Notes under the pieces: model-generated | Told to the model about the DNA's origin: nothing | The model's database searches: none | Seen by the model: the letters and a program-made list of their open reading frames with translations, nothing else | Program-made: the position numbers and the translations under genes | Shown: piece by piece, positions 7,873-24,635 of the stretch | Numbering within the stretch: the stretch's first letter is position 1 | Layout: every line of letters starts with the position of its first letter | Source of the DNA: Alphaproteobacteria bacterium | GTDB taxonomy: Bacteria; Pseudomonadota; Alphaproteobacteria; Sphingomonadales; Sphingomonadaceae | DNA: 63,829 nt | Assembly (NCBI GenBank): GCA_018970445.1 | Contig: JAGWWF010000022.1 | Span: forward strand, 1-63,829 | Reading direction: 5' to 3'

Positions 7873-8849
7873 AGCCGATCGATGAACCAGTAGCCGGCGG
7901 TGCTGCCGATGGCATAGGCGGCCGTGAAGATCGCCGGCTGCAACGCAGCCGGTGCCAGCCGGCGCAGCAGCCACAGCAGGCCGGATGCGCCGGCGATGAT
8001 CGCCAGTTGGCCGGCCTCCACCCCGATGTTGAAGGCCAGCAGCGCCATCGGCACCTCGCCGGCGGGCAGGCCCACCTCGCGCAGCGCGCCAGCAAAGCCG
8101 AAGCCGTGCAGCAGGCCAAACAGGAAGGCCACCAGCCAGGGCAGCCGCTGTGACAGGCGGGGCTGGTCGGGCGCTGATCCGGTCTGGGCCTTCACGATCT
8201 CCACCGCCAGAAACAGGATCGACAGCGCAATCACCGCTTCCACCGGGGCCTGCGGCAGGCCGAACAGGCCCAGCGTGGTGCCAGCCAGGGTGATCGAATG
8301 GGCGATGGTGAAGGCGGTGGCGGCCGCCACCACCGGCCAGCCGCGGCGCAGCAGCAGCACCAGCGCCACCACGAACAGCAGATGATCGATGCCGCCCACG
8401 ATATGTTCAACGCCGATCACCCCATAGGTTTGCGCCACCTGCCAGCGGCTGGCGCGACGGGCCAGCGTGATCGTGGGCGCATCAACCCGCAGCTGGGCGG
8501 CCTGCACCGCCGCGTCCAGCGGCGCGACGCGGATCAGGCCATCGGGGCTGCCGGGTGCCAGCCCGGCCACGCCCAGCCGCGCGCCGGCCAGGGGCCGCGT
8601 GCAGCGGGCGGTGCCGGCGGCCACCAGCGCGCCGCCCACCAGTTGCGGCCGCGCCAGCGCCAGCCGGCAGAAACCGGGCAGCAGCGGCCGGCCGCTGCCG
8701 GCCACCCCGCCCAGCACCGGGGCCTTCCACAGCACATCCCACTGGCCGGCGGCGGTTTCGCGCAGCTCCAGATAGAAGGGCCGCAGTTCATCGGCGCGCG
8801 CCGGGCCGGCCAGTGCCAGCAGCAGCCAGGCCAGCAGCAGCCGGATCAT
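7869..8849 (-). CDS. HupE/UreJ-like membrane protein
   Basis: A 326-residue protein with a signal peptide (LLLAWLLLALAGPARA), an extracytoplasmic region of about 125 residues, then about six or seven hydrophobic helices. The signature GVIGVEHIVGGIDHLLFVV matches the HupE/UreJ family, in which some members are nickel or cobalt permeases. A second His-bearing helix reads LFGLLHGFGFAGAL. The ATG overlaps the stop of the isomerase gene (ATGA), and DUF3604 lies upstream of that, so the three form one transcript. Metal transport is family knowledge only for true HupE; in this context the role is unknown. Confidence 0.82.
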   Translation of the reverse strand: MIRLLLAWLLLALAGPARADELRPFYLELRETAAGQWDVLWKAPVLGGVAGSGRPLLPGFCRLALARPQLVGGALVAAGTARCTRPLAGARLGVAGLAPGSPDGLIRVAPLDAAVQAAQLRVDAPTITLARRASRWQVAQTYGVIGVEHIVGGIDHLLFVVALVLLLRRGWPVVAAATAFTIAHSITLAGTTLGLFGLPQAPVEAVIALSILFLAVEIVKAQTGSAPDQPRLSQRLPWLVAFLFGLLHGFGFAGALREVGLPAGEVPMALLAFNIGVEAGQLAIIAGASGLLWLLRRLAPAALQPAIFTAAYAIGSTAGYWFIDRL

Positions 8850-9691
8850 CGCACCGGCTCGATCACCACGTCGTATCGCGCCATCAGCGCCTTGAGATCT
8901 TCGGCCTCGGCGCGGGCGATGGCGGCGCGGCGCCAGTCATTCTCCAGCCGCTGGCGCACATCGGCCAGGCGGGACGGCGGCGGGGCCTCGCGCCGGTCGA
9001 TGCGCACCAGATGCAGGCCAAAGCCCGATGCCACCGGCCCGGCCCAGCGGCCGGTGGGCAGGCCGGCCAGCGCGGCGGCGAAATTGTCACCAAACTGCAT
9101 CGCCAGTTCATCGGCCGGTGCGGCGGCCAGCCGGGCTGGCAGTGGCAGCGCCGGCGCGGCCAGGGCCGGGGCCGCGCCCCGGTTCAGCGCCGCCAGCGTG
9201 GCGGCGGCAGCGGCGCGGCTGGCCGGCGTGTCATCGCCCACAAAGCGTTGTTCCAGCCAGTAACGCGCCGGCCGGGCATAACGGGCCGGATCGCGATCCA
9301 GCAGCGCCTGCAAATCGGCATCGCGCGGCACCTGCGCTTCGGCGCGGGCAGCCGCGATGGCCAGCATCTTGTTGCGCAATCGCTTCTTCACCGCATCGTC
9401 ATCCCGGTCCAGCCCCAGCGCCAGCGCCTCGCGATAATAGATTTCGGTGCGGACATGATTGCGGATCAGATCATCCAGCTCGGCCGCTGTCGGCACCCGG
9501 CGAAAGGCGCGGACATGATGTTCGATGATGCCGCCCACCACGGCCGCATCCACCACAATGCGCCGATCGCCCACATCGGCGGGGCGGCCCTGCATGATGG
9601 CAAACACCAGGCCGCCGGCCAGCAGGAAATGCAGCAGCGGTTCACGCAGGAGCGATGCGATGCGGGCCGGGATCATCATGCTTCGGATCAT
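8846..9691 (-). CDS. Parvulin-type peptidyl-prolyl isomerase, membrane-anchored
   Basis: About 281 residues. The ATG at 9691 was chosen because it overlaps the DUF3604 stop as ATGA; a GTG 15 bp upstream would add five residues. A single N-terminal hydrophobic segment (PLLHFLLAGGLVFAIM) anchors it, leaving the rest in the periplasm. The middle resembles SurA/PpiC chaperone regions (RNHVRTEIYYREALALGLD). The C-terminal PpiC-like domain has LPTGRWAGPVASGFGLHLVRI, the conserved end of the parvulin fold. It probably helps fold a periplasmic or outer-membrane partner, perhaps the DUF3604 lipoprotein (inference). Parvulin assignment is good; catalytic activity is not certain. Confidence 0.82.
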   Translation of the reverse strand: MIRSMMIPARIASLLREPLLHFLLAGGLVFAIMQGRPADVGDRRIVVDAAVVGGIIEHHVRAFRRVPTAAELDDLIRNHVRTEIYYREALALGLDRDDDAVKKRLRNKMLAIAAARAEAQVPRDADLQALLDRDPARYARPARYWLEQRFVGDDTPASRAAAAATLAALNRGAAPALAAPALPLPARLAAAPADELAMQFGDNFAAALAGLPTGRWAGPVASGFGLHLVRIDRREAPPPSRLADVRQRLENDWRRAAIARAEAEDLKALMARYDVVIEPVR

Positions 9692-11571
9692 CCCGGCGTC
9701 ACCCACACCGGCGAGCTGTAGGCGCGTTCCTGGGCCTTCACCCGCACCTGCGGCGGCAGTTTCAGCTTGTACCGCACCGCATCAAAGGCTGGCCAGGTGG
9801 GGGTGGGGATTTCCAGCACGCGCACATAATAGAAGGCGCGCACGGCCGGATCGAAATCCGGATCGGCCCACAGCGTGGTCAGCGTGGCCGCGCCGATGCT
9901 GTTGCGATAGGTGGCGGTGGCCAGATCGACCGTGTCCCCCACCGGTGGCAGCCGGCCGCCCACCGGACGCCGGGTTTCCGGGCTGCTCCACGCCACGTCA
10001 AACACGCGTTCGCGTGCCTTGCCGGCCCGATCAACCCAGCCCTTCACCACCTGCACGCGATCCAGATTGGCACCCTGCGGGTCTTTCAGGGCCGAGATGA
10101 TGAGGCGCGGGGGCGTCTTGCCGGGCGGCAATTCCCCGCCCATCGGAACCCCGCGCGCATAGCCCGCGCGCACCCAGTCCCCCTTCAGATCGGCCGGCGT
10201 GAAATCGCGGCCGGCGAACAGCCGCAACGTGATCCGCGGCCCGGTGGTGGCATAGACCTCGCGCCGCGCCATCGCATCGAAAATGGCGGCCCGGGTGTTG
10301 GCGCGCGCCCACACCCCGGCATAGCCGCTGGCCAGATAATGCCAGCCAAAGCGTTCCGGGCGCGGGCCGATGTTCTGGGGTGACAGCGCCCGGGCGGCCG
10401 AAGGTTCGTTGCCGCTGTGCTTGCCGAAGAAATTGTCCTCGTCCGCCGTCGCCAGCGCGGTGTGGCTGTCGGTCGATCCGATCACCCCGAACTTGTAGGG
10501 ATTGGCGCCGGTGGCCGCTTCGATCAGCAACCCGCGCTTCAGCGCCTCGCGCACATATTCGCCGGCAAACATGCCGGGCTGCTTGGGCTGGTTGCTCATC
10601 AGATTGTTGAGCTCCCACCCCGTCACGCCATAGCCGGCCATTTCGTCATTGGGTGACAGATAGGGGTGCGCTTCGCTGTCGCCCTTGATCTGGGTGATTT
10701 CCACCACCGGCTCCAGCCGGGCGCGACGCCGGGCATGGGCCGCCGTCATCGGCCCGCCGCCGGGCATGGTGAGTTCGAACATCAGCCCGTTCGACAGATT
10801 GCCGTTGTGCGGAATCGCCAGCACGCGGCCACCGGTGTCCTTTTCATAGGCCTCCATGGCGTTCCAGATCTCGTCCGGCGTTGCCTTGTAGGTGGGATCG
10901 ATCGGCACCACGCTGCGCACCCGATCGGCCCCGTCGCGAAAGATGATGTTGCGGTGCAGATTGTTGCCGCCCTGCATCAGCGTGTATTCATAGCCATGAA
11001 AGGCAGTGAAGCGGCCCGGTTCGTTGTATCGCTCCACCGCATCGATGCTGGCGTTCCACACCGATTTGGTGCGTTCGGCCGCGCCATCGGGGTTCAGCAT
11101 GGCCTGCGGCAGATCATTGGCGCCGCGCGCCGCCAGTATCTCCACCATGGCGCGGCGCGATCCGTCCGGCCCTTCGTGCATCATGTCGTGCCAGCGCCGC
11201 ATGCGCTCATCGCGGATGAACAGGCGCGGCGCGTCATACAGCGCCTTGGTTGCGCCCAGGCCTTCGGCATGATCGGCGATCACCAGAAAATCCAGCGGCC
11301 GGGCCAGCTTCGCCTGCATGCCGGTGGTGGCCGTCACCGCCTCGCCGCGGGCAAAGCGCAGCGCGTCTTCCGGCCCCAGCCGCACGCCCAGGCCAAAGGC
11401 ATCCACCGAATTGCTGGTGTGCAGATGCGTGTCCCCCCAATAGACCCGGTCGGGAAATTCGCTCAGTTTCACGCTGTCAGGCCGGGGCTTCGGCGGCGCT
11501 GCGGCTTCACAGCCCGCCAGCAGCGCCGCGCCGCCCAGTGCCAATGCCGCCCGCAGCGCCGTGCCCGTCAT
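9688..11571 (-). CDS. DUF3604 lipoprotein (PHP-like metal-dependent hydrolase fold)
   Basis: A 627-residue protein. The ATG at 11571 is preceded by GGAAGGGA and gives a clear lipoprotein signal with lipobox LAGC (Cys21); the longer reading frame upstream lacks any signal and runs into the divergent promoter. The body has metal-binding motifs of the PHP/amidohydrolase-like DUF3604 family: YWGDTHLHTSNSVDAF, DFLVIADHAEGL, FHGYEYTL, VLAIPHNGNLSNG and GSTDSHTALA. It is likely anchored to a periplasmic face of the envelope. It is the first gene of the coupled trio with the isomerase and HupE-like genes. The substrate of the family is not known to me. Confidence 0.88.
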   Translation of the reverse strand: MTGTALRAALALGGAALLAGCEAAAPPKPRPDSVKLSEFPDRVYWGDTHLHTSNSVDAFGLGVRLGPEDALRFARGEAVTATTGMQAKLARPLDFLVIADHAEGLGATKALYDAPRLFIRDERMRRWHDMMHEGPDGSRRAMVEILAARGANDLPQAMLNPDGAAERTKSVWNASIDAVERYNEPGRFTAFHGYEYTLMQGGNNLHRNIIFRDGADRVRSVVPIDPTYKATPDEIWNAMEAYEKDTGGRVLAIPHNGNLSNGLMFELTMPGGGPMTAAHARRRARLEPVVEITQIKGDSEAHPYLSPNDEMAGYGVTGWELNNLMSNQPKQPGMFAGEYVREALKRGLLIEAATGANPYKFGVIGSTDSHTALATADEDNFFGKHSGNEPSAARALSPQNIGPRPERFGWHYLASGYAGVWARANTRAAIFDAMARREVYATTGPRITLRLFAGRDFTPADLKGDWVRAGYARGVPMGGELPPGKTPPRLIISALKDPQGANLDRVQVVKGWVDRAGKARERVFDVAWSSPETRRPVGGRLPPVGDTVDLATATYRNSIGAATLTTLWADPDFDPAVRAFYYVRVLEIPTPTWPAFDAVRYKLKLPPQVRVKAQERAYSSPVWVTPG

Positions 11572-11708: not shown

Positions 11709-14700
11709 ATGCCGTTGCGCAAGGCTGCGGGCTGGCTGGTGGTGATGCTGCTGGCGGTGCTGGCACCGGCGGCGCGGCCGCTCGCCGCCCAACCCGCAGC
11801 AAGCCCGGCGGTGGAACCGCGCATCGTGGTGCAGGCGATCAGCGAGGCCGGCATCGATGTCGCGGCCTGGTCGCCCGATGGCCGCTTCATCTGGACCGCA
11901 TCGGGCTTCGGCCGCGAACTGCTGCTGTGGGATGCGAAACGCGGCATCATCATCGACGGGCTGCGCCTGCCTTCGCCGCCGGGGGCCACGGCTGATGTGA
12001 TGCGGCTGACCCGCATGGCCATGGCGCCCGACGGCCGCAGCCTCACCATCGATGGCGAGGTGATGGATGTGCAGAGCCAGGCCAACATCGCGGGCCGCCG
12101 CTATGTCGTCAACACCGCCAGCCGCCGCATCAGCATCGCGCCGCCGCCGCCGGTGGCGGCCGGCCGCACGGCGGACAAGGCGGCGCTCGACTGGATCAAT
12201 GCGCTTTCGGCCATCTATGCCGGCGGCGAGGACATGACGCGGGCGGCCGCAGAACAGATATTGCCGCGGCTGCCGGCCGCCCCCGATGGCCGCACCCGCA
12301 TGGTGCGGGCCGGCACCGGCTTTGGCCCGGTCGGCCCGGATGGCAAGGTGCGGCTGCCGCGCGTGACCGATCACACCAGCAGCATCGCCGATGCCGAACT
12401 GTCGCCGGATGAACGCATCCTGGCGGTGCTGACCATGAACGAGGAATTTTCGGCCAAGGGTGGCGATGCCATCCAGTCGGTGCAGCTGCTCGATCTGGCC
12501 AGCGGCCGCATGCTGCCGCGCGTGGAGGCTGCCGGCGATTTCGATCGGCTGCGCTGGATCGACAACGAACGCTTTGCCGTGTTCGAAAGCGATGATCAGG
12601 ATGATCCGCTGAGCGATGCCACCGAAGGCGAACTGTCGCAGATGGCGATCTACAAGGCCAGCACCGGCACGCTGCTGGCCCGCGTGCCCGGCCGCTGTTT
12701 CACGGCGATGCTGCCCGATGGCCGCTTCATCGGGGCGGGCCTGGCCAATTGCCGCCGTGGCGTGCCGCCGGCCAGGGGGCTGGAACTGCTGGCCGGTGAT
12801 CGCTGGCAGCCGCTGCCCGGCCCGGCCATCGCGCGCGATGCCCATGTGCGGGTGCTGGCGGTGTCGCCCACCGGCGATCGTTATGTCTATGGCGTGCGGC
12901 TGGCCAATGGCGCCAACCGCATCCAGATCGTCGATCTGGCCACGGGGGCGGCCGGCCCGTCGCTCGGTCTGGATGATACCGCCATATTGACGATGATCAG
13001 CTTTGCGCCCGACGGCCGCCGATTGTGGATCGCCGGCAACGGCACGCTGGCCGAATGGCAGATCGATGCGCCGCCCGCTGCCGATGGCACGCCGGCCCTG
13101 CGCGAACTGCCCGGCCTGGTGCTGATGCCGCAGCGCATGGCTGGCGATGGCCGCTGGCTGATGGTGGGCGGCGCGCTGGAAGAACGCATCCAGATGATCG
13201 ATCTGGCCGATGATCGCGGATCGCGCACGGTGGAATTCCCCGGCTCGGCGGCGGTGGGCCTGATGCGCGGCCGGCCGGTGCAGTGGGCGGCATCGATCAC
13301 CGAAGGCATCAGGCTGTGGGATCGGCGCAACGGCCGCGTGCTGGTGTCGATCCGGCTGTTGCCGGGCGGGCGGTTCGTGGCGGTGGCCCCCGATGGCCGT
13401 TACGACACCAACATGGGGCCGGATTCGGAAAACTTCCGCTGGCTGGTCACCGATCGGCCGTGGGAATCGCTGGCCCCGCAAACGCTGATGCGCGATTATT
13501 ACGAACCCCGGCTGATTGCCAAGCTGATGGATTGCGCCCGCGCCGGCAATTGCGCCAGCGCGCTGCATCCGGTGCCGCCGGTGGCCGGGCTGAACCGGCA
13601 ATTGCCGCAGGTGGCGGTAACGGCGGTGCGTGCAACCGAACCGGGCCTGGCCGAAGTGGATGTGGTGGCCAGCGAGACCATCGATCCGCAAACGCGCACG
13701 CCATCGGGCGTGTTCGGCATCAAATTGTTGATGAACAACCGCGAAATCGCCCGCGATCCCGATGATCCGGCCGCCGGGCCGGCCGATCTGGCGGCCTGGC
13801 AGACAGCCAATGCCACCGAACCGGGCGACGACAAGGGCAACCGATACTGGACCTTCACCGTGCCCATTCCCACCGATGGCAAGCCGATCCGCTTTTCCGC
13901 CTACAGCTTCAACAGCGCGCGGGTGAAAAGCGATACCGCCCATCATGATTGGCAGCCGCCGCCGCAGCGCCCGCGCCCACGCCGCGCCTATGTCGTCACG
14001 ATCGGGGTGAATGATTATGCCGAACCCCGGCTGAAACTGGATTTCGCCGTGCCCGATGCCGATCTGATCGGCCAGCGGCTGGCCAGCCTGCCGGGATACG
14101 AGGTGCGGCGCATCACCCTGACCAGCACGCCGCGCCGGCCGGTGCTGGCCGATCAGATCAGCGCGGCGCTGCTGATCCTGGCGGGTGCCGATCCCGGCCC
14201 CGAACGCGAAACGCTGCGCGCCGGCGGCCATGATGCCGCGCAGCTGGCCGAAGCAACCCCGGATGATGTGGTGATCATCAGCTTTTCCGGCCACGGCTTT
14301 GCCCAGCCCAGTGGCAGTTTCGCGCTGCTCGCATCCGATGTGCGCTGGGGGGCGCTGGATGCCGCCCCCGATCCCGACAGCGTGATTCCGGCCGAAGAAC
14401 TCACCATGCTGCTGCGCGCCATCAAGGCCGGAGAAATTGCCTTCATCATCGACGCCTGCCATTCCGGCGCGGCGGTGGAAACCCCGGATTTCAAGCCCGG
14501 CCCGATGGGCGATCCTGGCCTGGGCCAGCTGGCGTTCGACAAGGGTCTGCGCATCCTGGCCGCCACCCAGGGCGATGATGTGGCGATCGAAAACCCCAAT
14601 CTGGCCCATGGCCTGCTTTCAGCCGCGCTGGGCGAAGGCCTGACCCCCAGCGGCGGCCCGGCCGATCGCGACCGCGATGGCCGCGTGCTGCTGAACGAAT

Positions 14701-14888
14701 GGCTGGAATATGCCGTGGCGCGGCTGCCCAGCCTGGAGGAAGAGGTGCGGCGCGGCGGCGGCCCGATCATCACGCGCGGCGTGCGGCTGGTGCTGCGCAG
14801 CCGCGATGAACCACCGCGCAGCCAGCTGCCCAGCCTGTTCGATTTCACCGGCACGCCCTCGCCGGTGGTGCTGCGGGGGCGGCCATGA
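11709..14888 (+). CDS. Exported WD40-like/caspase-family protease
   Basis: A 1059-residue protein with a signal peptide (RKAAGWLVVMLLAVLAPAARPLAAQ), so it acts outside the cytoplasm. Residues of about 35-620 contain repeated propeller-like segments (AAWSPDGRFIWTASG, ADAELSPDERILAVL, ISFAPDGRRLWIAGNG, VAVAPDGRYDTN), a WD40-like beta-propeller. A linker domain follows, then a C-terminal caspase/metacaspase (C14) domain starting near AYVVTIGVNDYAEPRL. The dyad is visible: His862 in ISFSGHGF and Cys917 in IIDACHSGAA. The start at 11709 gives the signal; the frame is open far upstream but that part is antisense to DUF3604. It overlaps the next caspase gene by ATGA. Cytoplasmic caspase-WD40 proteins are known in bacteria; a secreted one in a protease operon is the odd feature. 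Confidence 0.88.
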   Translation: MPLRKAAGWLVVMLLAVLAPAARPLAAQPAASPAVEPRIVVQAISEAGIDVAAWSPDGRFIWTASGFGRELLLWDAKRGIIIDGLRLPSPPGATADVMRLTRMAMAPDGRSLTIDGEVMDVQSQANIAGRRYVVNTASRRISIAPPPPVAAGRTADKAALDWINALSAIYAGGEDMTRAAAEQILPRLPAAPDGRTRMVRAGTGFGPVGPDGKVRLPRVTDHTSSIADAELSPDERILAVLTMNEEFSAKGGDAIQSVQLLDLASGRMLPRVEAAGDFDRLRWIDNERFAVFESDDQDDPLSDATEGELSQMAIYKASTGTLLARVPGRCFTAMLPDGRFIGAGLANCRRGVPPARGLELLAGDRWQPLPGPAIARDAHVRVLAVSPTGDRYVYGVRLANGANRIQIVDLATGAAGPSLGLDDTAILTMISFAPDGRRLWIAGNGTLAEWQIDAPPAADGTPALRELPGLVLMPQRMAGDGRWLMVGGALEERIQMIDLADDRGSRTVEFPGSAAVGLMRGRPVQWAASITEGIRLWDRRNGRVLVSIRLLPGGRFVAVAPDGRYDTNMGPDSENFRWLVTDRPWESLAPQTLMRDYYEPRLIAKLMDCARAGNCASALHPVPPVAGLNRQLPQVAVTAVRATEPGLAEVDVVASETIDPQTRTPSGVFGIKLLMNNREIARDPDDPAAGPADLAAWQTANATEPGDDKGNRYWTFTVPIPTDGKPIRFSAYSFNSARVKSDTAHHDWQPPPQRPRPRRAYVVTIGVNDYAEPRLKLDFAVPDADLIGQRLASLPGYEVRRITLTSTPRRPVLADQISAALLILAGADPGPERETLRAGGHDAAQLAEATPDDVVIISFSGHGFAQPSGSFALLASDVRWGALDAAPDPDSVIPAEELTMLLRAIKAGEIAFIIDACHSGAAVETPDFKPGPMGDPGLGQLAFDKGLRILAATQGDDVAIENPNLAHGLLSAALGEGLTPSGGPADRDRDGRVLLNEWLEYAVARLPSLEEEVRRGGGPIITRGVRLVLRSRDEPPRSQLPSLFDFTGTPSPVVLRGRP

Positions 14889-16789
14889 TGCGGATCATCC
14901 TGCTGCTCATCGCCGCGCTGATCGCTGCCCCGGCCACGGCTGCGCCCACCGTGCGCGCCGTGTTCGTGGGCATCGATGTCTATCGTTTTTCCAACCAGCG
15001 CCGCCCCGGTGCCGGCTTTGACGATCTGTCGGGCGCGGTGGCCGATGCCGGCCGCATCAAGGCGGCGCTGGGCCAGGCGCTGGGCGTGGCCTTTGATCAG
15101 CTGCCCGCCAATGGCTGCCAATCGGCCAATGATCGTTCGATCACCCTGATCAACCAGTGTGCCACCCGCGCCAGCATCCTGGCCAGCTGGGCTGCGGTGG
15201 CCAACCGCAGCCAGCCGCAGGATATCCTCATCCTCTATTTTGCCGGCCACGGCTCGCGCTTCATCGATGGCACCACGCTGGATCAGGCCAGCCGCTACAA
15301 CAGCACGCTGATGCCGCACGACGCCCGCGACCCCGGCGCGCTGACCGCCGGCGACATATTGGATCACGAGGTGCGTCGCCTGATCAACGCCGCCACCTCG
15401 CGCGGGGTGCGGGTGGTCACCATCTTCGACAGTTGCAACAGCGGCACCGCCAACCGCAACGGCACCAGCGCCAGCCGCAGCGCGCCCAGCCTGGCGGTGG
15501 CCAACCTCACCCGCAACAGCCCGCCGGCGCAATATGGCAACATGGGGGCCTGGCGCGTGCATCTGGCCGCCGCCGGTGATGGCCAGGATGCGCAGGAAGC
15601 CGGCAGCGTGGGCCAGCGCGCCGGCCTGTTCACCACGGCGCTGGCCCGCGCGCTGGCGCAAACGCCCGGCGCCAGCTTTGCCGATCTGGCCGCCCGCGCC
15701 GTGATCGAGGTGACCGCGGCCAGCGGCGGCCGCCAGCTGCCCCATGCCGAAGGCGCGCTGCGCGCCAGCCTGAACGGCGAGGAAATCCGCGTGCCGCTGT
15801 TCCAGGTGGTGCGCGAACGCGGTGGCCTGCTGCTGCTGGGCGGCGGCCTGCTGGGGGTCACGCCCGGATCGCGCTTTGCGCTGTTCGGGGCCACCAGCGC
15901 CGCGCTGGATGCCGGCACCACGCCGCTGGCCACGGCGCGGGTGGTTTCGGTGCGCAACAGCGTGGGCCAGTTGCAGCTGGAAGGGCCGGCCCCGCCCGGT
16001 CTGCCGGCGCGGCTGATGGCGCGGGAGGTGCACCATGAATTTGGCGGCCCGGTGCTGGCGCTGGCCAGCGATGACGCGGCTGCCGCCCAGGTGGCGGCCG
16101 GGCTGGGTTTCGTGCGGGTGGCGGCCGATGCGCCATTCCGGCTGCAACGCGGGCCGGCCGGCATGCTGCTGGCGCGGGCCAGCGGCCTGCAACTGGCGGC
16201 ACTGCCGCCGCCCGAAGATCCGGCGTTCCGGCCGCAGCTGGCCGCCGCGCTGGGCAAGATCGCGCGGGTGGAACAATGGCTGGCCGGCCTGCGCAGCCGG
16301 CCCGATCTGTGCCTGGCGGTCAGCAACGCGCCATCGGCCGGTTACAACCCGGCCAGCTGCCCATCGGGCCCGCCGCCGGCCAGTGTCACCCTGCGCCAGG
16401 CCCAGTCGATCCGGCTGGGCCTGGTCAACCGCGCTGCCGCGCCGCGCCAGCTGTATGTGTTCCACATTGGCCCCCGTTATGATGTCACCCTGGTGCTGCC
16501 GGCCTTTGGCGGGCGCGACAGCGCGCTGCCGCCCGGCGAGGCGCTGCGCGACGGGGTGGATATCTATCCCACCGAACCGGGCGATGTGCGCATCGTCGCA
16601 CTGTCGAGCAGCGTGCCGCTGGACGTGTCGGCGCTGGAACAGACCGGCACCGACGTGATCGACAGCGATGCCTGCCTGACTGCGGTGGCGCGCAATTTCT
16701 GCCAGCGCGCCGATACCAGCCGGTCGGGCACCGCCGGCGAGGCGCGGGCCTGGTCGGCCGTGATCATCCCGGCGCGGGTGCTGCCGTGA
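14885..16789 (+). CDS. Exported caspase-family protease, DUF4384-like C-terminus
   Basis: A 634-residue protein with a signal peptide cleaved near ALIAAPATAA, followed directly by a caspase-like domain (VRAVFVGIDVYRFSN). The dyad is His122 in LYFAGHGSRF and Cys184 in TIFDSCNSGT. Around residues 305-370 is a small beta-rich region (LLGVTPGSRFALFGAT). The C-terminal 130 residues (SIRLGLVNRAAAPRQLYVF through GDVRIVALSSSVPLDVS) resemble DUF4384, which often follows bacterial caspase domains. The start overlaps the first caspase stop (ATGA) and the stop overlaps the trypsin gene GTG, so all three are coupled. The substrate is unknown; bacterial caspase homologues usually cut after Arg or Lys (family knowledge). 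Confidence 0.88.
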   Translation: MMRIILLLIAALIAAPATAAPTVRAVFVGIDVYRFSNQRRPGAGFDDLSGAVADAGRIKAALGQALGVAFDQLPANGCQSANDRSITLINQCATRASILASWAAVANRSQPQDILILYFAGHGSRFIDGTTLDQASRYNSTLMPHDARDPGALTAGDILDHEVRRLINAATSRGVRVVTIFDSCNSGTANRNGTSASRSAPSLAVANLTRNSPPAQYGNMGAWRVHLAAAGDGQDAQEAGSVGQRAGLFTTALARALAQTPGASFADLAARAVIEVTAASGGRQLPHAEGALRASLNGEEIRVPLFQVVRERGGLLLLGGGLLGVTPGSRFALFGATSAALDAGTTPLATARVVSVRNSVGQLQLEGPAPPGLPARLMAREVHHEFGGPVLALASDDAAAAQVAAGLGFVRVAADAPFRLQRGPAGMLLARASGLQLAALPPPEDPAFRPQLAAALGKIARVEQWLAGLRSRPDLCLAVSNAPSAGYNPASCPSGPPPASVTLRQAQSIRLGLVNRAAAPRQLYVFHIGPRYDVTLVLPAFGGRDSALPPGEALRDGVDIYPTEPGDVRIVALSSSVPLDVSALEQTGTDVIDSDACLTAVARNFCQRADTSRSGTAGEARAWSAVIIPARVLP

Positions 16790-17874
16790 AGGCTGCGCTG
16801 CTGGCCCTGTTCAGCCTGCTGGCCGGCCAGCCGGCGCCGCCGCCGGCCCCGCCCCCGGCCGAAGCCCCACTGCCTTTGCCGGCCGAAGCCCCGTTGCCGC
16901 TGCCCACCGAACCGCCGCCGCCGGCCGCGGGGCAAGCCGGCACCCCGATTGAAGTGGTCGAACCGGCGCACCGCGTCGTGCGCGGCACCCCGGCGCAAGG
17001 CTTTGTGCCCTGGCAGGTGCAGTTCTTCACCACCCTGCCGATTTCGGAAGATGAACTGCGCAAGGATCGCGCCAAGCCGCCCACCGATCGCAGCAAGCGC
17101 TTTTTCGAGCGCATGACCCGTTATGAACAGGATCATCTGTGCGGCGGCGTGCTGATCGCGCCGCAATGGGCGCTCACGGCGGCGCACTGCCTGGTGGCCC
17201 CAAACGAAGCCTATAGTTACGCGCTGGACGATATCCGGGTGCGGATTGGGCACAACCAGCTCACCCAGGCCACGGTGATGCGCATCGAACGCGCCATCGT
17301 GCACGGCGATTACCGGCGTGCCGGCACGCGCCAGCACGATATCGCCCTGCTGCACCTGGTGCCGGAACCGGGCAAGACCAACCTCGACATGGTGGCCCAC
17401 AGCGATCCGATCCGGATCGAAACCGGCCCGGTGCCGGCGGCGGCCACGCTGATGGTGACGGGCTGGGGCCAGACCGGCGAGATCGAAGCCGGGCAAGAAC
17501 GCGATGTGCGCGGCCAGCCGATGCGCAGCTCGCTCGATCTGCTGGAAGGCCGGTTGCGCCCGGTATCGGCGCGCGACTGTGGCCGGGTGGCGGCCTATCG
17601 CCGGTCGCTGGGGCCCGGCGCGATCTGCGCGGTGGGCGGCGATGCCCGGCAGCAGGACACCTGCCAGGGCGACAGCGGCGGCCCGCTCACCATGCAAGGC
17701 CGGCTGGTCGGGCTGGTCAGCTGGGGAGTGGGCTGTGGCCGGCCGGGCGTGCCGGCCATCTATACGCGGGTGGCGCATTATGCCGGCTGGATCCGGCTGG
17801 TGCAGGATCAGGCCCCGGCCGGGCGCATCAGCCGCTGCCGGGTGGCGGCGCCGGGCCGGCTGGCCTGCCGCTGA
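16786..17874 (+). CDS. Exported trypsin-like serine protease (S1)
   Basis: A 362-residue protein starting at GTG, overlapping the preceding stop as GTGA. A short hydrophobic signal is followed by a Pro/Ala-rich linker with a repeated APLPLP unit (residues 16-47). The S1 domain begins near HRVVRGTPAQGFVPWQVQF. The triad is visible: His134 (LTAAHCL), Asp185 (HDIALLHL) and Ser297 (CQGDSGGPL). Asp291, six residues before the serine, occupies the S1-pocket position that gives trypsin-like Arg/Lys specificity. Paired cysteines suggest disulfides, fitting export. R63-VV and R66 resemble the zymogen cleavage site of chymotrypsin-type proteases, so it may be activated by cleavage (inference). Confidence 0.92.
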   Translation: MKAALLALFSLLAGQPAPPPAPPPAEAPLPLPAEAPLPLPTEPPPPAAGQAGTPIEVVEPAHRVVRGTPAQGFVPWQVQFFTTLPISEDELRKDRAKPPTDRSKRFFERMTRYEQDHLCGGVLIAPQWALTAAHCLVAPNEAYSYALDDIRVRIGHNQLTQATVMRIERAIVHGDYRRAGTRQHDIALLHLVPEPGKTNLDMVAHSDPIRIETGPVPAAATLMVTGWGQTGEIEAGQERDVRGQPMRSSLDLLEGRLRPVSARDCGRVAAYRRSLGPGAICAVGGDARQQDTCQGDSGGPLTMQGRLVGLVSWGVGCGRPGVPAIYTRVAHYAGWIRLVQDQAPAGRISRCRVAAPGRLACR

Positions 17875-19653
17875 TCAGGATGGCACTGCCAGCTTGCGAT
17901 CGGCATAGCTGGATCGCCATTCGGCCAGATCGGCCAGCATGATGGCGGCGGCCTCTTCCAGCGCCAGCGCGGCAAATCCGGGCGAAAGATCGGCGCGGCG
18001 CAGCACGTCTGCCACCCGTGCCAGCCGTTCCGCCGTGGCCTGGGATCGCCGCGCCACGCCGGCAAAATCCCCGGCGCCGCGCAGGCCGAACAGCGCGCCG
18101 CCCACAGTGGGCAGCCCGGCCGACAGCAGGCTGAGTTCCAGGCTGTAAGGCTTGATCGCGCCATAGGCGACGATCAGCCCGATCAACGTGCCCACACCGA
18201 TCAGGCCGGTGAGGATCAGCAGCGCCTGGCCGCCGCTGTGCAGCCGGTGATCCAGCCGGTGCATGCGGTGGTGCACCAGATGATGATAGGCGCTTTGCGC
18301 ATCCAGTTCATGCGCCACGATATGGCGGGTGAGCGCGGCAAAGCCGGCATGATCGGCTGCGGCCGGCGGGCGCGGCAGGCCCTGCCAGATCGCCAGCGCA
18401 TACCAGTCGGTCCAGCGGCGCGGGCCGACCAGATCGCGCCCCGGCGGGCTGGCCGCGCCGATCAGGCGCAGGCTGCGCTGCAGGCGCAGGGTTTCGGCCA
18501 GATAGCGATAATCCAGCCAGCGCCGGTGCCATTGCCGGCCGTTGCCGATGCTGGTGTTCAGCACCACCGCCCCCACCACCAGCAGTTCGGCCACCAGCAG
18601 CGGCACCTTGGCCCCCGGCAACAGCCCGGCCATCAGCGCCAGCACCACCGCGATCGACGCGCCGAAAAAGTTGAACACCAGCCCGCTGCGAAAGATATGG
18701 GCATAATGAGTGGCCAGGCCATCGGCCCAGGCAAAGGCCGCCTCCAGCCGGTCCAGCCCTTCGGCCGGCACCCCGGCGTCGGCACAGCCCTGGGCATGAT
18801 CGGCCCAATCGGCGCGATTGGCGTCGCGATAGGGCGGCGCCTTCAGGAAGCCGCGCCGCAACGGCTGCACCCCGGTGGCGGCCAGCAGCAATGGCCATTC
18901 CGCCCGCCAGCGCCGGCGCTGTTCGGTTTCGGCCAGATAGATGTCCAGCTCGGTCGCCGGCAGCGGCGGAGTGAGCAGCACCGCCAGCACGCGGGCCAGC
19001 ATGGCATCATCCAGCGTGGCCGATGGCACCGTATCCAGCCGCAGCCGTTCGGGCGGCACCGCATCCAGCCCGGCCCACAGCAATTCGGGCGGGCTGCCGG
19101 CGCTGGGCACATGCACCACCGGCACGCCGCGCCGCACCGCTTCGGCCACCACGGCCGCCGTGCCGCCGGGGCCGCGTTCGGGTTCGCCATCCCACAGCGC
19201 GATCAGCAGTTCGCTGCCCGCCACCGTCACATCGCCGGCCAGCACATAGGCATTGTCGCCCGCCGCCGCCCCGGCGGGGGCTTCCCACACATGCGCGGCG
19301 CGGGCCAGCAGGCCGGCCATGCGCGCCTGATCGGCGGCCGGCATGGTGGCGGCAAAGCGCGCCCGTTCAAACGGCAGTATGGCAGCAAGGGCATAGCCCT
19401 GGGCCAGCGCGGCTTCGGCCGCGATCTGATCGGTGCCGGCGGCCAGGCCGGAAATCAGCGTGAGCTGCGGCGGCGCATCGGCAAAATGCCCGGCCTGCTG
19501 CGCCGCGATGCGCGCCACATCGGCCTTCACCCGTGCCAGCACCCCGCCAATGGCCGCGGTGAGCGCCGGTTCGATGGCCGGATCCAGCGTGCGGTGCCCG
19601 GTGATGCCGATGGTGAGCGCCAGCAGCGGCCGCGGCGGGTGGGCGGCGGTCAT
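17875..19653 (-). CDS. SLOG-domain protein with multi-TM SLATT-like C-terminus
   Basis: About 592 residues from the ATG at 19653; an in-frame GTG at 19698 would add 15. The N-terminal third looks like a SLOG (LOG/DprA-like Rossmann) domain: LALTIGITGHR at 11-21, LISGLAAGTDQIAAEAA at 66-82, then YALAAILPFE and SELLIALWDG. Such domains bind nucleotides or related ligands. The C-terminal half has two hydrophobic helices (about 321-367), the motif YRYLAETLRLQRSL, two more helices (about 472-530) and a final helix AERLARVADVLRRAD. This layout resembles SLATT-type membrane effectors. It is convergent with the trypsin gene, with abutting stop codons. The family call is by motif only. Confidence 0.68.
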   Translation of the reverse strand: MTAAHPPRPLLALTIGITGHRTLDPAIEPALTAAIGGVLARVKADVARIAAQQAGHFADAPPQLTLISGLAAGTDQIAAEAALAQGYALAAILPFERARFAATMPAADQARMAGLLARAAHVWEAPAGAAAGDNAYVLAGDVTVAGSELLIALWDGEPERGPGGTAAVVAEAVRRGVPVVHVPSAGSPPELLWAGLDAVPPERLRLDTVPSATLDDAMLARVLAVLLTPPLPATELDIYLAETEQRRRWRAEWPLLLAATGVQPLRRGFLKAPPYRDANRADWADHAQGCADAGVPAEGLDRLEAAFAWADGLATHYAHIFRSGLVFNFFGASIAVVLALMAGLLPGAKVPLLVAELLVVGAVVLNTSIGNGRQWHRRWLDYRYLAETLRLQRSLRLIGAASPPGRDLVGPRRWTDWYALAIWQGLPRPPAAADHAGFAALTRHIVAHELDAQSAYHHLVHHRMHRLDHRLHSGGQALLILTGLIGVGTLIGLIVAYGAIKPYSLELSLLSAGLPTVGGALFGLRGAGDFAGVARRSQATAERLARVADVLRRADLSPGFAALALEEAAAIMLADLAEWRSSYADRKLAVPS

Positions 19654-19783
19654 GGCTGGCCGGCCCGACACTGGCTGATCGCTTCCATGCCCGTTCACCC
19701 CGCCTGCCGCAGCCGGAGCGAACCGGCTGCGGCCACTGGGTAAAGACCGGGCGGCAAAGTTGCAAGCCCGGCGCGCGGGCGCT

Positions 19784-20872
19784 TTAGGCCAGCGCAGTCC
19801 GCCGCCGGCGCAGCGTGGCGCCTACCAGCCCAAAGCCGGCGATCAGCATGGCCCAGCTGCCCGGTTCGGGCACGGCCGGCACACGGCTGGTGTTGACCGG
19901 CGGCAGCCAGGAAAAATTGGCCGGCGGCGCCGGCAGCGGCAACAGATCAGGATCCGGCAGCGGCGCAGAGGCTTCCACCACGCTGGCCGAGGTATAGGTG
20001 GCCGCATCGAACCGCCGGCCGATCATGATCTGATCATTGCTGGGGGCCGAAAAGGCACTGAATCCGCCATCGCCGGCCATCCGGAAGGGTTCGGAACTGC
20101 CATCATTGCGCGGATCGCCAAACGCCACCTGCACGCCTTCGCAACCCAGCAGGGTGGTGCAAAAGCCGTTGCGGATCCGCACGCGGGTGTGGGTGAAATA
20201 CTGGATATAATGGGTGGCACCCGCCGCGATCGGCGCCAGCGTCAGGTTCAGCGGCGTTGCCCCCCATTCATAGGCCACGCGACCATCGCCATCATAAGTC
20301 GAGAATCCAGTGAACATCCTGCCGTCGGACGTCACGATATCGCTGGCCAGGCGCGGCGCGGCCGAACCCATCGAACCAAAGGCGCTGTACAGATCGGTCC
20401 GGTTGCCGCTGAAGGGGCCGGCGTCAAACTGTTGCACAGTGAAGTTGAAACGGACTTCGGTGGAACTGTTGCCGCCCTGGATGCCGATGAAGCCGGGCGT
20501 GATGATCGAATCGAGCCGCAGAAAGGCAGTGGAGGTGCCGCTGTTGGTGATGGCGATCTGCAGATTGGTTTCCAGCTCGGCAAAGCCATCCCCCTGAGCA
20601 TAGACATTCTGCAGGAAGAAGAAATTGCCGTTGGGCTGCACATAGCTGGTCAATTGCAGGCCGTTCGAACGATTGCCGCTGGAAAAGCTGAAATCCTCGT
20701 TGGAAACACCGAATGTCTCGCCGCCTTCCTGCGGCGTGTATGGCGAGGTGTGCCGCATCGTGCTGGTCATCGTCAGCACTTCGGTGATGCTGGGCGCTGC
20801 GATGGCCGGCACGCTGGCTGCACCCGCCGCCAGCACAAGGCCAAGCAGCTTCAAACCCGAATTCATGATCAT
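19784..20872 (-). CDS. PEP-CTERM secreted protein, copy 1
   Basis: A 362-residue secreted protein. The ATG at 20872 follows GGGTGGGGACA and gives a signal peptide (LKLLGLVLAAGAASVPAIAA). The body has no recognised enzyme motif. The C-terminus has the PEP-CTERM sorting signal: VPEPGSWAMLIAGFGLVGA then a basic tail LRRRRTALA. PEP-CTERM proteins are processed by exosortase and released to the envelope or matrix; no exosortase gene is in this window. It is homologous to the next gene: both contain VAFGDPRNDGSSE and end alike. The longer frame upstream has no signal and was rejected. Confidence 0.88.
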   Translation of the reverse strand: MIMNSGLKLLGLVLAAGAASVPAIAAPSITEVLTMTSTMRHTSPYTPQEGGETFGVSNEDFSFSSGNRSNGLQLTSYVQPNGNFFFLQNVYAQGDGFAELETNLQIAITNSGTSTAFLRLDSIITPGFIGIQGGNSSTEVRFNFTVQQFDAGPFSGNRTDLYSAFGSMGSAAPRLASDIVTSDGRMFTGFSTYDGDGRVAYEWGATPLNLTLAPIAAGATHYIQYFTHTRVRIRNGFCTTLLGCEGVQVAFGDPRNDGSSEPFRMAGDGGFSAFSAPSNDQIMIGRRFDAATYTSASVVEASAPLPDPDLLPLPAPPANFSWLPPVNTSRVPAVPEPGSWAMLIAGFGLVGATLRRRRTALA

Positions 20873-20984
20873 TGTCCCCACCCTACAAGCCCGGCAATCA
20901 ATATGGATTGCCTCAAGGCCGGCAGGTGAAGAAGTAACCATGTCGCAGCAGGTTGCAAGGATAATTTTATCAAATTACCAATAA

Positions 20985-20998
20985 ATCTGAATTCAGAT
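20985..20998. repeat. 14-bp perfect palindrome at the 3' end of PEP-CTERM copy 2
   Basis: ATCTGAATTCAGAT is a perfect palindrome overlapping the stop codon of the upstream minus-strand gene, in an A+T-rich patch. It could be a short hairpin or a protein site. It has no U-tract, so I do not call it a terminator. Confidence 0.3.
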
Positions 20999-22135: not shown

Positions 22136-22279
22136 GATGCAGAACCCCCGATGGCAACGGAACGAGCATGATGCGCCCGGCACCAATAGGCAAGGCAAAT
22201 TTACGAGTGTTATATGCCGGTTAACCAAAATGACCGATAAGATTGCAAATATCTGATTCAAAACGCTTTCTGGAAATGA

Positions 22280-22772: not shown

Positions 22773-24635
22773 TCAGGGTGAGAGCGTAGGCAAGTCATCG
22801 CATTGACGTTTTGCATCGGCCAGCACGGCCGGCGTGGATTTCATTCGGTTGAGCAGGGCAATGGCGGCTTCGCAACTGGCCCCGGCCTCGGCAGCGCGCC
22901 CGCCGCGCGCCAGCACGCGGGCCTTGAGCAACAGCAGTTCGGCCTGATCGGGATCATCCGGGCCATATTCGGCATCATAAATCCGCTTGGCGGTGGCCAC
23001 CCGGGCCAGCGCCGTCTCCATCTGCCCGCGCCGGCTTTCGGCTTCGGCCATGTAGAATTCCGCATCACCAACCGCCGCATTGGCCGGCCCGTAAAGTTGG
23101 GCATAGATATCACGGGCCTGCATCAGCGTTGCGATTGCCGTGTCTGCGGCTCCCGAAGCGATCTGGATGCGGCCCTGCAGGATCAGATTGTCGGCCAGCA
23201 GCGGATGATTGCCTTCCAGCACGCGGGCATAGATGCGATTGGCGGCCATGATGCGGGGCAAGGCGGCGGCAATGTTGCCGGCTTCGAAGGCGGCATAGGC
23301 GCTGTTGCGCATGGCGGTCGCAACCCTCTGGTGGTTGCGGCCATAAAGGCTGGTGGTCAACGCTTCGGCCGCTGCAAAATCGCGCGCGGCACCGGGCAGA
23401 TCGCGCAGTTTCGTGCGCGCCCGCGCCATGTAGGTGAACAGATTGGCCCGGTCGGCCCGGTGGTCACCCGGCAGCGCCTGGAAGACGGCAGCGGCTGCGC
23501 CAAGCTCCCGCGTGGCAAGAACATAATTGCCGGTCCGATGCGCCAGCAGCCCGCGTTGCTGCAACCACATCGCATGCAAGGTGGGGCCTTCATCGCTTTC
23601 ATCGTCAAACGCCGCTCTGGCCGCTGCGATCAAGCGTGCGGCCTTGTCGGTGTCCGCCGCCTGGATGGCCGCGTTCGACAGTTTCAGCAGCACCCGGGCC
23701 CGTTCCGGGCTTCTGGCCGGCAGGCGGGCGAGGGCTTGTTCCAGATCGGCCACCGCCTCCTTCGGCAGGCCCAGGTTCATGTAGATCGCGCCTGTGGTGG
23801 CCAGCAGGCGGGCGCTCACCATCGGTTCTTCCGGCAATTCCACCGCGGCGCGCTTGCTGGCGCGCTCCAGGATGGTGAGCGCGGTGATGGAGCGGGGATT
23901 TTCCGTGGCCGGGTTGGCGATTTCGAAGGTGCCGATCAGGAAATCCAGGCTGCGCGTGGCGACCAGCTGCTGGCGCACCGCTTCGGCGCGCTGGAGATTG
24001 GCATAGATGGCCAGGCCGACAGTGACGAGCGCGATGGCCAGCGAACCGCCGGTGATGGCCAGCAACTGGCGCTGCCGCCGGGCGGCGTCGCGCTGGGCCA
24101 GTTGATCCAGTTTCAGCCCGGTGATGCCGGCAATCAGCTTGAGCAGGGCGAGGCGCCTGCCATCCTTGCCGTCGCGCATGTCGGCCGCGATCGGTTCGGC
24201 CGGCACGTCGGACAGGCTGCCATCCTGCGCCAGCCTGAAGCGCAGCGCTGGCGGGAAACATTCGCGATCATCGCCGGCATAAGGTTCGCCATCGATGATC
24301 AGCGGCAGCACGCGCGCTTCGCCATGGGCGCGCTTGAAGGCGAGGATTTCCTCGTTCACCCACATGGATCTGGCCGAACGCGGGCTGCACAGCACGATCT
24401 GGAAACGGGCGGCGGCCAGCGCGGCGCGCAGTTCCCCGCCCAGATCGGCGCTGGCCGGCAGTTCATCGCGGTCGCGGAACACCGGCGGCAGCCTGGCCGG
24501 CACCGGGCCAAAGGGCGATTCCCCGCCAACAAGCGCGCGCGGCAGACGATAGGATTCCAGCGCCTTGTGCAGCCAGCGCGCCATGGCCGTATCGGCGTGG
24601 CTGTAACTGATGAAGGCGCTGTACCGCTGGGTCAT
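22773..24635 (-). CDS. TIR domain - transmembrane - TPR protein
   Basis: A 620-residue protein. An N-terminal TIR domain (residues 1 to about 120) opens with YSAFISYSHADTAMARWLHK, has FRDRDELPASADLG, and carries SMWVNEEILAFK with Glu94/Glu95 near the usual NADase glutamate position. A basic stretch precedes one hydrophobic helix at about 191-213 (LLAITGGSLAIALVTVGLAI). The remaining 400 residues are helical repeats of TPR type, probably on the other side of the membrane. This architecture (TIR_2 plus TPR) is seen in bacterial signalling or defence proteins. Its stop-side neighbour is a PEP-CTERM remnant, and a small gene lies 4 bp upstream. NAD cleavage is possible but unproven. Confidence 0.85.
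   Translation of the reverse strand: MTQRYSAFISYSHADTAMARWLHKALESYRLPRALVGGESPFGPVPARLPPVFRDRDELPASADLGGELRAALAAARFQIVLCSPRSARSMWVNEEILAFKRAHGEARVLPLIIDGEPYAGDDRECFPPALRFRLAQDGSLSDVPAEPIAADMRDGKDGRRLALLKLIAGITGLKLDQLAQRDAARRQRQLLAITGGSLAIALVTVGLAIYANLQRAEAVRQQLVATRSLDFLIGTFEIANPATENPRSITALTILERASKRAAVELPEEPMVSARLLATTGAIYMNLGLPKEAVADLEQALARLPARSPERARVLLKLSNAAIQAADTDKAARLIAAARAAFDDESDEGPTLHAMWLQQRGLLAHRTGNYVLATRELGAAAAVFQALPGDHRADRANLFTYMARARTKLRDLPGAARDFAAAEALTTSLYGRNHQRVATAMRNSAYAAFEAGNIAAALPRIMAANRIYARVLEGNHPLLADNLILQGRIQIASGAADTAIATLMQARDIYAQLYGPANAAVGDAEFYMAEAESRRGQMETALARVATAKRIYDAEYGPDDPDQAELLLLKARVLARGGRAAEAGASCEAAIALLNRMKSTPAVLADAKRQCDDLPTLSP

Follow-up and report, generated by a model that had tools for sequence, protein, structure and literature searches.

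An operon of predicted exported metacaspases and a trypsin zymogen lies beside transmembrane TIR and SLATT genes and may form an envelope protease relay

Bacterial systems that combine TIR, caspase and trypsin domains are described, in the portions of the literature compared here, as intracellular alarm and execution systems. Thoeris effectors comprise SIR2 proteins (type I), transmembrane (TM)-macro proteins (type II) and caspase-like proteases (type IV) (PMC12847820); SLATT, TIR, caspase and trypsin domains co-occur in other conflict systems (PMC7159879, PMC8195603); proteases open partner pro-enzymes in Canu and related loci (PMC12799240); and LypABC of Caulobacter uses trypsin-like domains (PMC13236601), all as given in the accessible sections of these papers. 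Here we describe a three-gene protease operon, P1-P2-P3, at positions 11709-17874 of a 63,829-nucleotide contig (JAGWWF010000022.1; "the window" denotes this whole stretch) from a bacterium of the order Sphingomonadales. In this locus and its relatives, proteases that are probably exported adjoin a gene for a transmembrane TIR protein, a combination present in none of the known systems compared, as far as those sections describe them. Nor was the gene set found in the literature, a search limited to the top-ranked matches among open-access papers and no proof of absence; the initial annotation, which knew of no described system of this exact form, agrees with this outcome.

The operon consists of three plus-strand open reading frames (ORFs), with the following features.

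11709..14888, plus strand: P1, predicted exported beta-propeller metacaspase; ATG start, 1059 residues, catalytic H862 and C917; propeller at about 37-580, beta-sandwich at about 634-748 (from the structure model), C14 domain at about 755-1010
14885..16789, plus strand: P2, predicted exported metacaspase; ATG start, 634 residues, catalytic H122 and C184; C14 match at residues 24-290, C-terminal region without a Pfam match
16786..17874, plus strand: P3, predicted exported trypsin (S1A) zymogen with a Pro-rich propeptide; GTG start, 362 residues, catalytic H134, D185 and S297
16972..16974, plus strand: codon of P3 Arg63, directly 5' of VVRG, the predicted activation junction

The 4-bp overlaps and the active-site residues reported in the initial annotation were found as described: the ORFs overlap by ATGA and GTGA, and all seven catalytic residues lie at the positions given there. 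Pfam Peptidase_C14 matched P1 (E 3.3e-7) and P2 (E 9.9e-14) and Pfam Trypsin matched P3 (E 2.4e-38), each above cut-off. P1 and P2 have the caspase fold with a His-Cys dyad that defines metacaspases and orthocaspases (C14), and the dyad is invariant in the aligned family members (16/16 for P1, 12/12 for P2). Acidic positions are also kept: the Asp of an "ND" motif and the Asp two residues before the catalytic Cys are invariant in aligned P1 and P2 (D783/D915 in P1; D54/D182 in P2, which align with Asp positions of solved metacaspases), and we take both to be S1-pocket residues. The P2 profile matched yeast metacaspase-1 with an E of 5.9e-24, the best solved relatives being the yeast and trypanosome metacaspases. 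P1 and P2 thus resemble orthocaspases and metacaspases in dyad and acidic positions and differ from them in sharing an operon with a trypsin and a neighbourhood with a TIR receptor. P3 has the His-Asp-Ser triad and the zymogen N-terminus behind a cleavable residue that characterise S1A trypsins; the triad and Arg63 are invariant in 12/12 aligned members. It also keeps the Asp ahead of the CQGDSGGP motif, from which we presume Arg/Lys specificity.

The WD40 assignment of P1 held in the model and fell short in Pfam, where the propeller gave sub-threshold matches (WD40 E 0.025, Gmad1 E 0.0036). An AlphaFold2 model built from 16 sequences (mean predicted local distance difference test score (pLDDT) 82.7) contains a long all-beta region, a beta-sandwich and a caspase domain, and Foldseek placed WD40-type propellers at the head of its PDB matches (best E 1.1e-17). 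The long alignments have low TM-scores (0.12-0.24 by query, with 0.61 the best by target among those listed), which we read as propellers arranged differently.

Using G for genomes (G000 being the window's own) and L for loci, P1 and P2 are the sole C14 matches in G000 (3.03 Mb). A PF00089 search of 21 genomes (13 of the genus, own included) gave matches of 131-140 bits in seven, and each sits at a P1-P2-P3 operon (G000, G002, G003, G008-G011); the operon trypsin of G005, divided by a contig end, scored 85.7 bits. The remaining matches reached at most 83.3 bits and were labelled HtrA-like by us.

Signal peptides had been annotated on all three proteins, and a heuristic supports them. A simple Sec/lipobox rule, used in place of SignalP, was positive for 15/16 P1, 12/12 P2 and 12/12 P3 proteins (11 Sec and one lipoprotein), the single negative P1 (L037:1889-5092) having an uncertain start. 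The same rule called 11/32 other window genes positive, including TonB receptor and HupE-like genes, and at least one of these calls is false (the SLATT gene described below), probably two; the rule is supportive of export rather than decisive. All three proteins also carry invariant non-catalytic cysteines (C609 and C615 in P1, C78 and C92 in P2, C119 and C135 in P3). Export is supported by the signal peptides and by the invariant cysteines, which fit oxidising surroundings. The statement that bacterial caspases are usually discussed as cytoplasmic needs a qualifier: in its accessible part, a 2012 survey (PMC3501461) reports 46 bacterial metacaspases with one N-terminal helix, possibly a signal peptide, together with 23 metacaspase operons containing other proteolysis domains and operons of two or three metacaspases, also in Alphaproteobacteria. 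Because that survey had already noted the N-terminal helices, exported bacterial caspases as such are not new.

The initial annotation would have fallen had the three genes not been neighbours in related genomes; they are neighbours, with a fixed order in Sandarakinorhabdus, other Sphingomonadales and Lysobacterales. A P2 search of 60 genomes (own included) gave 18 matches at E 1e-5 or better; a strong match was present in 13/23 other genomes of the same genus, and all 13 have P1 ahead of and P3 behind P2 in the available sequence (in G014 over two contigs; in G017 with P3 detected by blastp only). P2 of G008 is divided into two frames (loci L034 and L070), and that operon is broken or misassembled. 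Six loci (L026, L031, L032, L033, L037, L203) have at least two tandem P1 genes. A scan over the genomes of 84,980 species yielded at least 151 confirmed P2 relatives, of which 80 were kept. The first 18 (L066-L083) come from Sandarakinorhabdus and other Sphingomonadales, Lysobacterales and Caulobacterales, and include Lysobacter prati, another Lysobacterales record, Caulobacter, Brevundimonas and a Caulobacteraceae metagenome-assembled genome. P3 follows P2 in 17/18 of these (L076 ends within P2) and P1 precedes it in 15/18 (absent in L079 and L080, while L083 begins within P2); the Caulobacterales retain the second caspase and the trypsin. The other 62 kept loci contain no P3 match and are generic caspases, many cyanobacterial. 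Over 31 loci, a 4-bp overlap was found at 48/57 testable P1/P2 and P2/P3 junctions. Because gene order is kept and 48/57 junctions overlap by 4 bp, the arrangement is more than chance, and the order is fixed across genera and across the Alpha-/Gammaproteobacteria boundary. A viral origin was set aside, one scan of viral contigs having returned no P2 relative. In Caulobacter L079, the trypsin is followed by another C14 protein (12885-14717), the third of that locus, which seems to have a signal peptide.

The three-protease system proposed initially, with its operon, order and export, is supported but is not self-contained: its neighbourhood repeatedly includes a TIR-TM-TPR gene, and in many cases a SLOG-SLATT gene as well. 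The earlier interpretation is right as far as it goes and incomplete, and thus partly supported. In the window the two partners are the following.

22773..24635, minus strand: TIR-TM-TPR protein, 620 residues; TIR at residues 8-116, TM helix at 192-210, candidate catalytic Glu96
17875..19698, minus strand: putative SLOG-SLATT protein, 607 residues; N-terminal Rossmann-like domain and membrane helices (hydropathy peaks at 339-357 and 492-510); stop codon directly adjoining the P3 end

Among the 27 unique operon loci with at least 1.9 kb beyond P3, 23 have a TIR-TM-TPR gene beside the operon, mostly beyond P3 and in L081 upstream of P1, versus 0/20 control loci (Fisher p 1.3e-9, relatedness ignored). 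Loci with less than 1.9 kb past P3 (L076, L078/L036 (G023), L203, L080, L030/L067 (G005)) stand outside this count, and the same genomes were counted once (L072/L162, L077/L205, L081/L204; records L066-L070, L078, L082). The TIR profiles were built from eight of the 27 (window, L035, L068, L070, L072, L073, L075, L082); without these, TIR was found at 15/19 operons (p 1.5e-7, relatedness ignored). The controls were 20 loci of 19 kb from genomes carrying some of these genes elsewhere, and none gave a match to any of nine profiles at E 1e-6, which rules out chance neighbours. As background, a set of 21 genomes contained 37 TIR_2 matches; the window's own genome accounts for seven, six of which lie outside the window. 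Among 347 genomes of the family (own included), full-length P2 was present in 15 and SLATT in 78; relative to the 15 P2 genes, SLATT lay within 10 kb in 9, at about 36 kb in one and on other contigs in two, and was absent in three. We consider it probable that the proteases and the TIR protein are functionally linked.

A different explanation keeps the stand-alone cascade of the initial annotation, which might serve envelope quality control, nutrient use or attack on other microbes, with TIR and SLATT merely frequent neighbours. The three-gene order is indeed the tightest association, with distance correlations of 0.90 (P2-P3), 0.83 (P1-P3) and 0.82 (P1-P2), and neither Caulobacter L079 nor G002 has a nearby TIR gene. 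The TIR frequencies just given, with and without the profile-building loci, argue against a free-standing cascade, as do caspase-free trypsins with similar TIR and SLATT partners (see below), and we judge it unlikely. The other pairs gave 0.57 (TIR-SLATT), 0.53 (P3-TIR), 0.51 (P1-SLATT), 0.48 (P2-TIR), 0.40 (P2-SLATT), 0.36 (P1-TIR) and 0.33 (P3-SLATT), from matrices that include two spurious short P2 rows (G635, G483) and G010 twice.

The window TIR domain (TIR_2 E 1.1e-12) is followed by one hydrophobic helix and then a C-terminal TPR region predicted to be periplasmic. By a hydropathy rule, 8/9 TIR proteins have one TM helix; the nearly identical L068 and L069 proteins fall below the threshold. 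Arg residues before the helix, clearer in some members, suggest from the sequence that the TIR part lies inside and the TPR part outside. Elsewhere the neighbour is usually a TIR protein of a separate kind, whose C-terminus combines a TolB-N-like part (TolB_N E 0.0088, short of the cut-off) with TPRs. Glu96 of the window protein stands within SMWVNEE, and the Glu of the corresponding S-x-W-V-x-D-E is invariant in 11/11 proteins of the other subtype; we take this Glu to be the catalytic residue. Both the TIR and the SLATT subtypes of the window's clade differ from those of most other loci, and the pairing therefore exists with two kinds. SLATT and TIR adjoin each other in many loci, with varying orientation.

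The SLATT gene of the window matched SLATT_1 (NF033634) at E 2.4e-10 (40.5 bits versus a cut-off of 41); a Lysobacter relative (30.9 bits) and the window match to Pfam DUF4231 (22.8 versus 24.7) also scored below cut-off. In a model from eight sequences (mean pLDDT 63.7), the N-terminal 200 residues are Rossmann-like and match DprA, molybdenum cofactor carrier protein (MCP) and YgdH, which are SLOG folds, with Foldseek probabilities of 0.80-0.99 but E values of 0.39 or worse, the best PDB match overall having an E of 0.067. The model thus gives weak support to a SLOG-like fold of the SLATT-protein N-terminus. TRPM4, the rank-1 PDB match with a probability of 0.35, was not used. A SLOG domain is carried by the Thoeris type I effector.

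Like Thoeris, the locus would pair a TIR enzyme with an effector responding to the TIR product (PMC12847820, as far as its accessible part goes). It departs from Thoeris by a TM helix and a TPR region, predicted to be periplasmic, in the TIR protein, by proteases that are probably exported and carry no ligand domain recognised by Pfam, and by the presence of a trypsin zymogen. The window TIR protein carries the Glu expected of a Thoeris TIR protein (Glu96, in the role assumed above); type IV, with its intracellular caspase, was rejected, both caspases here having signal peptides by the heuristic rule and no recognised ligand domain. EAD, EACC1, VMAP and GAP1 systems draw on the same toolkit of caspase, trypsin, TIR and SLATT, in what is accessible of PMC7159879 and PMC8195603, and differ from this locus in the exported proteases of the latter. 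The two caspases scored 42 and 36.6 bits against the EACC1-associated caspase model (NF047832), whose cut-off is 140, and assignment to that system was rejected. Among the window proteins scanned (ten neighbours with Pfam, six proteins with NCBIfam), MoxR, vWA, VMAP and EACC1 gave no match, and a VMAP system was rejected accordingly. Canu caspase-nuclease and trypsin-nuclease systems are alike in that a caspase or trypsin activates a pro-enzyme partner (PMC12799240, in the section accessible); here the proposed pro-enzyme is the trypsin and the place the periplasm, and no nuclease was found among the ten window neighbours scanned, on which ground a Canu assignment was rejected. PADLOC returned weak matches only (caspase, LmuA, ShosA; SAVED-TIR, Aga TIR, PDC-S66, ThsB).

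To approach the association from the other side, we examined the neighbourhoods of 62 SLATT genes, 58 of 79 profile matches plus L146-L149; of the remaining 21 matches, four were seen elsewhere (G000, G008, G009, G011) and 17 were outside the sample. Among the 35 genes scoring at least 640 bits, TIR was near 23, trypsin near 21, both near 20 and neither near 11; among the 27 weaker ones, TIR was near 14, trypsin near 4 and both near 4. The search profile (A4) was made mostly from caspase-locus genes plus L148, L151 and L152, so that the high scorers are a biased set. With the two caspase loci among the 35 removed, trypsin was present in 19/33 loci (18 also with TIR) versus 0/20 controls (p 1.2e-5), and in 17/31 (p 3.0e-5) once L148 and L152, both members of the profile, were left out as well. 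Caspase-free loci thus pair an exported trypsin with similar TIR and SLATT genes. Seven of these trypsins, examined with Pfam, proved to be S1 proteases whose N-terminal part is long, and a signal sequence was found in 16/18 by a permissive start search. From these sequences, exported trypsin, TIR receptor and SLATT look like a wider theme to which the caspases are an addition.

At the activation site of the trypsin, the residue is basic in 31/31 readable caspase-locus trypsins (Arg in 29, Lys in two) and in 7/21 caspase-free ones, the others having Tyr, Ala, Phe, Pro or an unclear residue (p 6.6e-8, relatedness ignored). Junctions were read by eye, excluding L209 and one L152 trypsin, in which no TAAHC-like motif was found. 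A second trypsin of Parasphingorhabdus marina (L072 4698-5870), on the other strand upstream of P1 and with a non-basic activation residue, was outside the count. Because the basic residue tracks caspase presence, it suggests, without proving, that the metacaspases open the trypsin. More broadly, a protease cascade is plausible since both caspases retain the acidic positions that mark metacaspases and the trypsin activation site always carries a basic residue in these loci; orthocaspases cleave after basic residues, according to the accessible part of PMC6426788. We give the caspase-to-trypsin step an even chance. The trypsin could instead be the only signalling protease, with P3 activating itself and the metacaspases acting as regulators rather than upstream activators. 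Caspase-free loci that retain trypsin, TIR and SLATT would suit such an arrangement, as would the P3 Asp before CQGDSGGP, whose link to Arg/Lys specificity is presumed above. The tracking of the basic residue with caspases (31/31 versus 7/21) and the invariant catalytic residues of both caspases in aligned members are harder to accommodate, and we regard a trypsin acting alone as quite improbable.

The partners may also have travelled together. For four proteins of Lysobacter prati (Gammaproteobacteria), the nearest counterparts apart from those in another Lysobacterales record belong to Sphingomonadaceae G528, with identities of 59% (P1), 68% (P2), 69% (P3) and 69% (TIR), far higher than the 33-39% identity of P1-P3 of either Lysobacterales locus to those of the window. 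These values suggest that P1, P2, P3 and TIR moved together. The three proteases, joined in the Lysobacter-G528 case by the TIR gene, seem to move as a unit, with SLATT a looser partner. The idea of SLATT as an equal partner is weakened by its departure from the Lysobacter-G528 pattern and by several loci in which it was not seen.

We tentatively favour, at somewhat less than an even chance, a protease relay in the envelope that would feed a pair of TIR-based signalling proteins. P1, with a sensor propeller and a metacaspase domain, and P2 would be Arg/Lys-specific metacaspases in the periplasm. On envelope damage or attack, they would cut pro-P3 after Arg63 and free a Val-Val N-terminus, of the kind that activates trypsins. 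The target of the active protease might then be the TIR receptor, at its periplasmic TPR part, or a ligand of that receptor, and the cytoplasmic TIR domain would make a signal derived from nicotinamide adenine dinucleotide (NAD). The SLOG domain would bind this signal and the SLATT helices would open the inner membrane, leading to cell arrest or death. The step from protease to TIR receptor draws on synteny and predicted topology, and outside-in signalling to TIR is less likely than not.

Signalling might also run from inside to outside. TIR and SLOG-SLATT would then sense a cytoplasmic threat and break the inner membrane, and the periplasmic proteases would be stored executioners for cytoplasmic targets, likened to granule or lysosomal proteases. 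SLATT is a predicted nucleotide-responsive, pore-forming effector in conflict systems (PMC7159879), and in Thoeris of type IV a caspase-like protease is switched on by the TIR product (PMC12847820), in the accessible parts of both sources, and the synteny data are the same as for the envelope relay. TIR proteins that mostly carry one TM helix and have a predicted periplasmic C-terminus, as would suit a sensor of the periplasm, point the other way, and exported enzymes with a zymogen site are unlike nucleotide-gated effectors. We assign this direction a low probability.

Several observations weigh against the envelope relay. The direction of signalling is not readable from synteny, and no conserved cleavage site was seen by eye in the periplasmic part of the TIR proteins. 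An Arg/Lys-specific trypsin could activate itself, so that a basic residue is no proof of a caspase step; as the trypsins of caspase-free loci belong to a subfamily that is longer and divergent, the contrast may be phylogenetic. P3 of L195 has no recognisable TAAHC-like motif and GDSGG is missing in 4/18 caspase-free trypsins, because of which not every trypsin copy need be active. Four operons had no TIR gene nearby, those of G002 (with 4.3 kb of flank), of Caulobacter L079 (with 8.9 kb), of G009 and of G014; in the last two the flank is mainly filled by the SLATT gene before the contig end, and each genome has, close to where another contig ends, a closely related TIR gene (80% and 91%). Distance correlations between proteases and TIR are modest (0.36-0.53). 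SLATT is loosely coupled: it was not seen in the available sequence of several TIR-bearing loci (for example L074, L077, L081, L083 and L202), neither TIR nor trypsin accompanies it in 11/35 high-scoring loci, and the Lysobacter SLATT protein is not closest to that of G528, several nearest relatives standing at 50-51%. Of the window neighbours scanned, the other eight are genes of metabolism or transport or have no characterised role.

In the animal Toll pathway, extracellular trypsin-type proteases act upstream of a transmembrane TIR receptor. The envelope relay, if true, would share this arrangement by analogy only, as there is no sign of homology between receptor ectodomains, and TPR stands here in place of leucine-rich repeats. 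The complete Toll-like version, in which an exported metacaspase-to-trypsin zymogen cascade activates the transmembrane TIR protein from the periplasm and the TIR product opens a SLOG-SLATT channel, seems rather unlikely. In that version, the step from protease to TIR would be central and the caspases an extra layer, as trypsin, TIR receptor and SLATT are retained where caspases are absent. If a conserved and apparently horizontally transferred locus did connect exported proteases with a TIR protein that spans the membrane, sensing would take place outside the inner membrane. Such a coupling, if true, would be a bacterial counterpart to the Toll arrangement and allow direct tests of how TIR receptors and protease cascades were brought into cooperation. 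Even if signals run in reverse, the gene set makes clear predictions: cleavage at Arg63, periplasmic location and NAD turnover by TIR.

Two further genes lie between SLATT and TIR in the window.

19784-20941 and 20993-22261, minus strand: two PEP-CTERM protein genes

These probably do not belong to the system: in L028, about 1.1 kb separates SLATT from the C-terminus of the TIR protein, too little to accommodate PEP-CTERM genes. By eye, exported-looking genes adjoin the window's TIR subtype in L149, L151, L157 and L158.

A small Ion_trans_2 channel gene lies beside SLATT in 19/79 loci (18 places, as L072 = L162; for example L072 17532-17975 and L163 8344-8835) and in 0/20 controls, a count that includes six loci without a clear SLATT gene and for which Pfam confirmation covers two genes; the channel may also take part in the membrane step. 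In L146 (8933-14045), TIR and SLATT stand beside a caspase with a DUF7379 match and no visible signal peptide and a CHAT protein, another protease set with the same TIR-SLATT pair. Upstream of P1 in the window, HupE/UreJ-like, rotamase and DUF3604 genes (7869-11571) form a separate minus-strand cluster.

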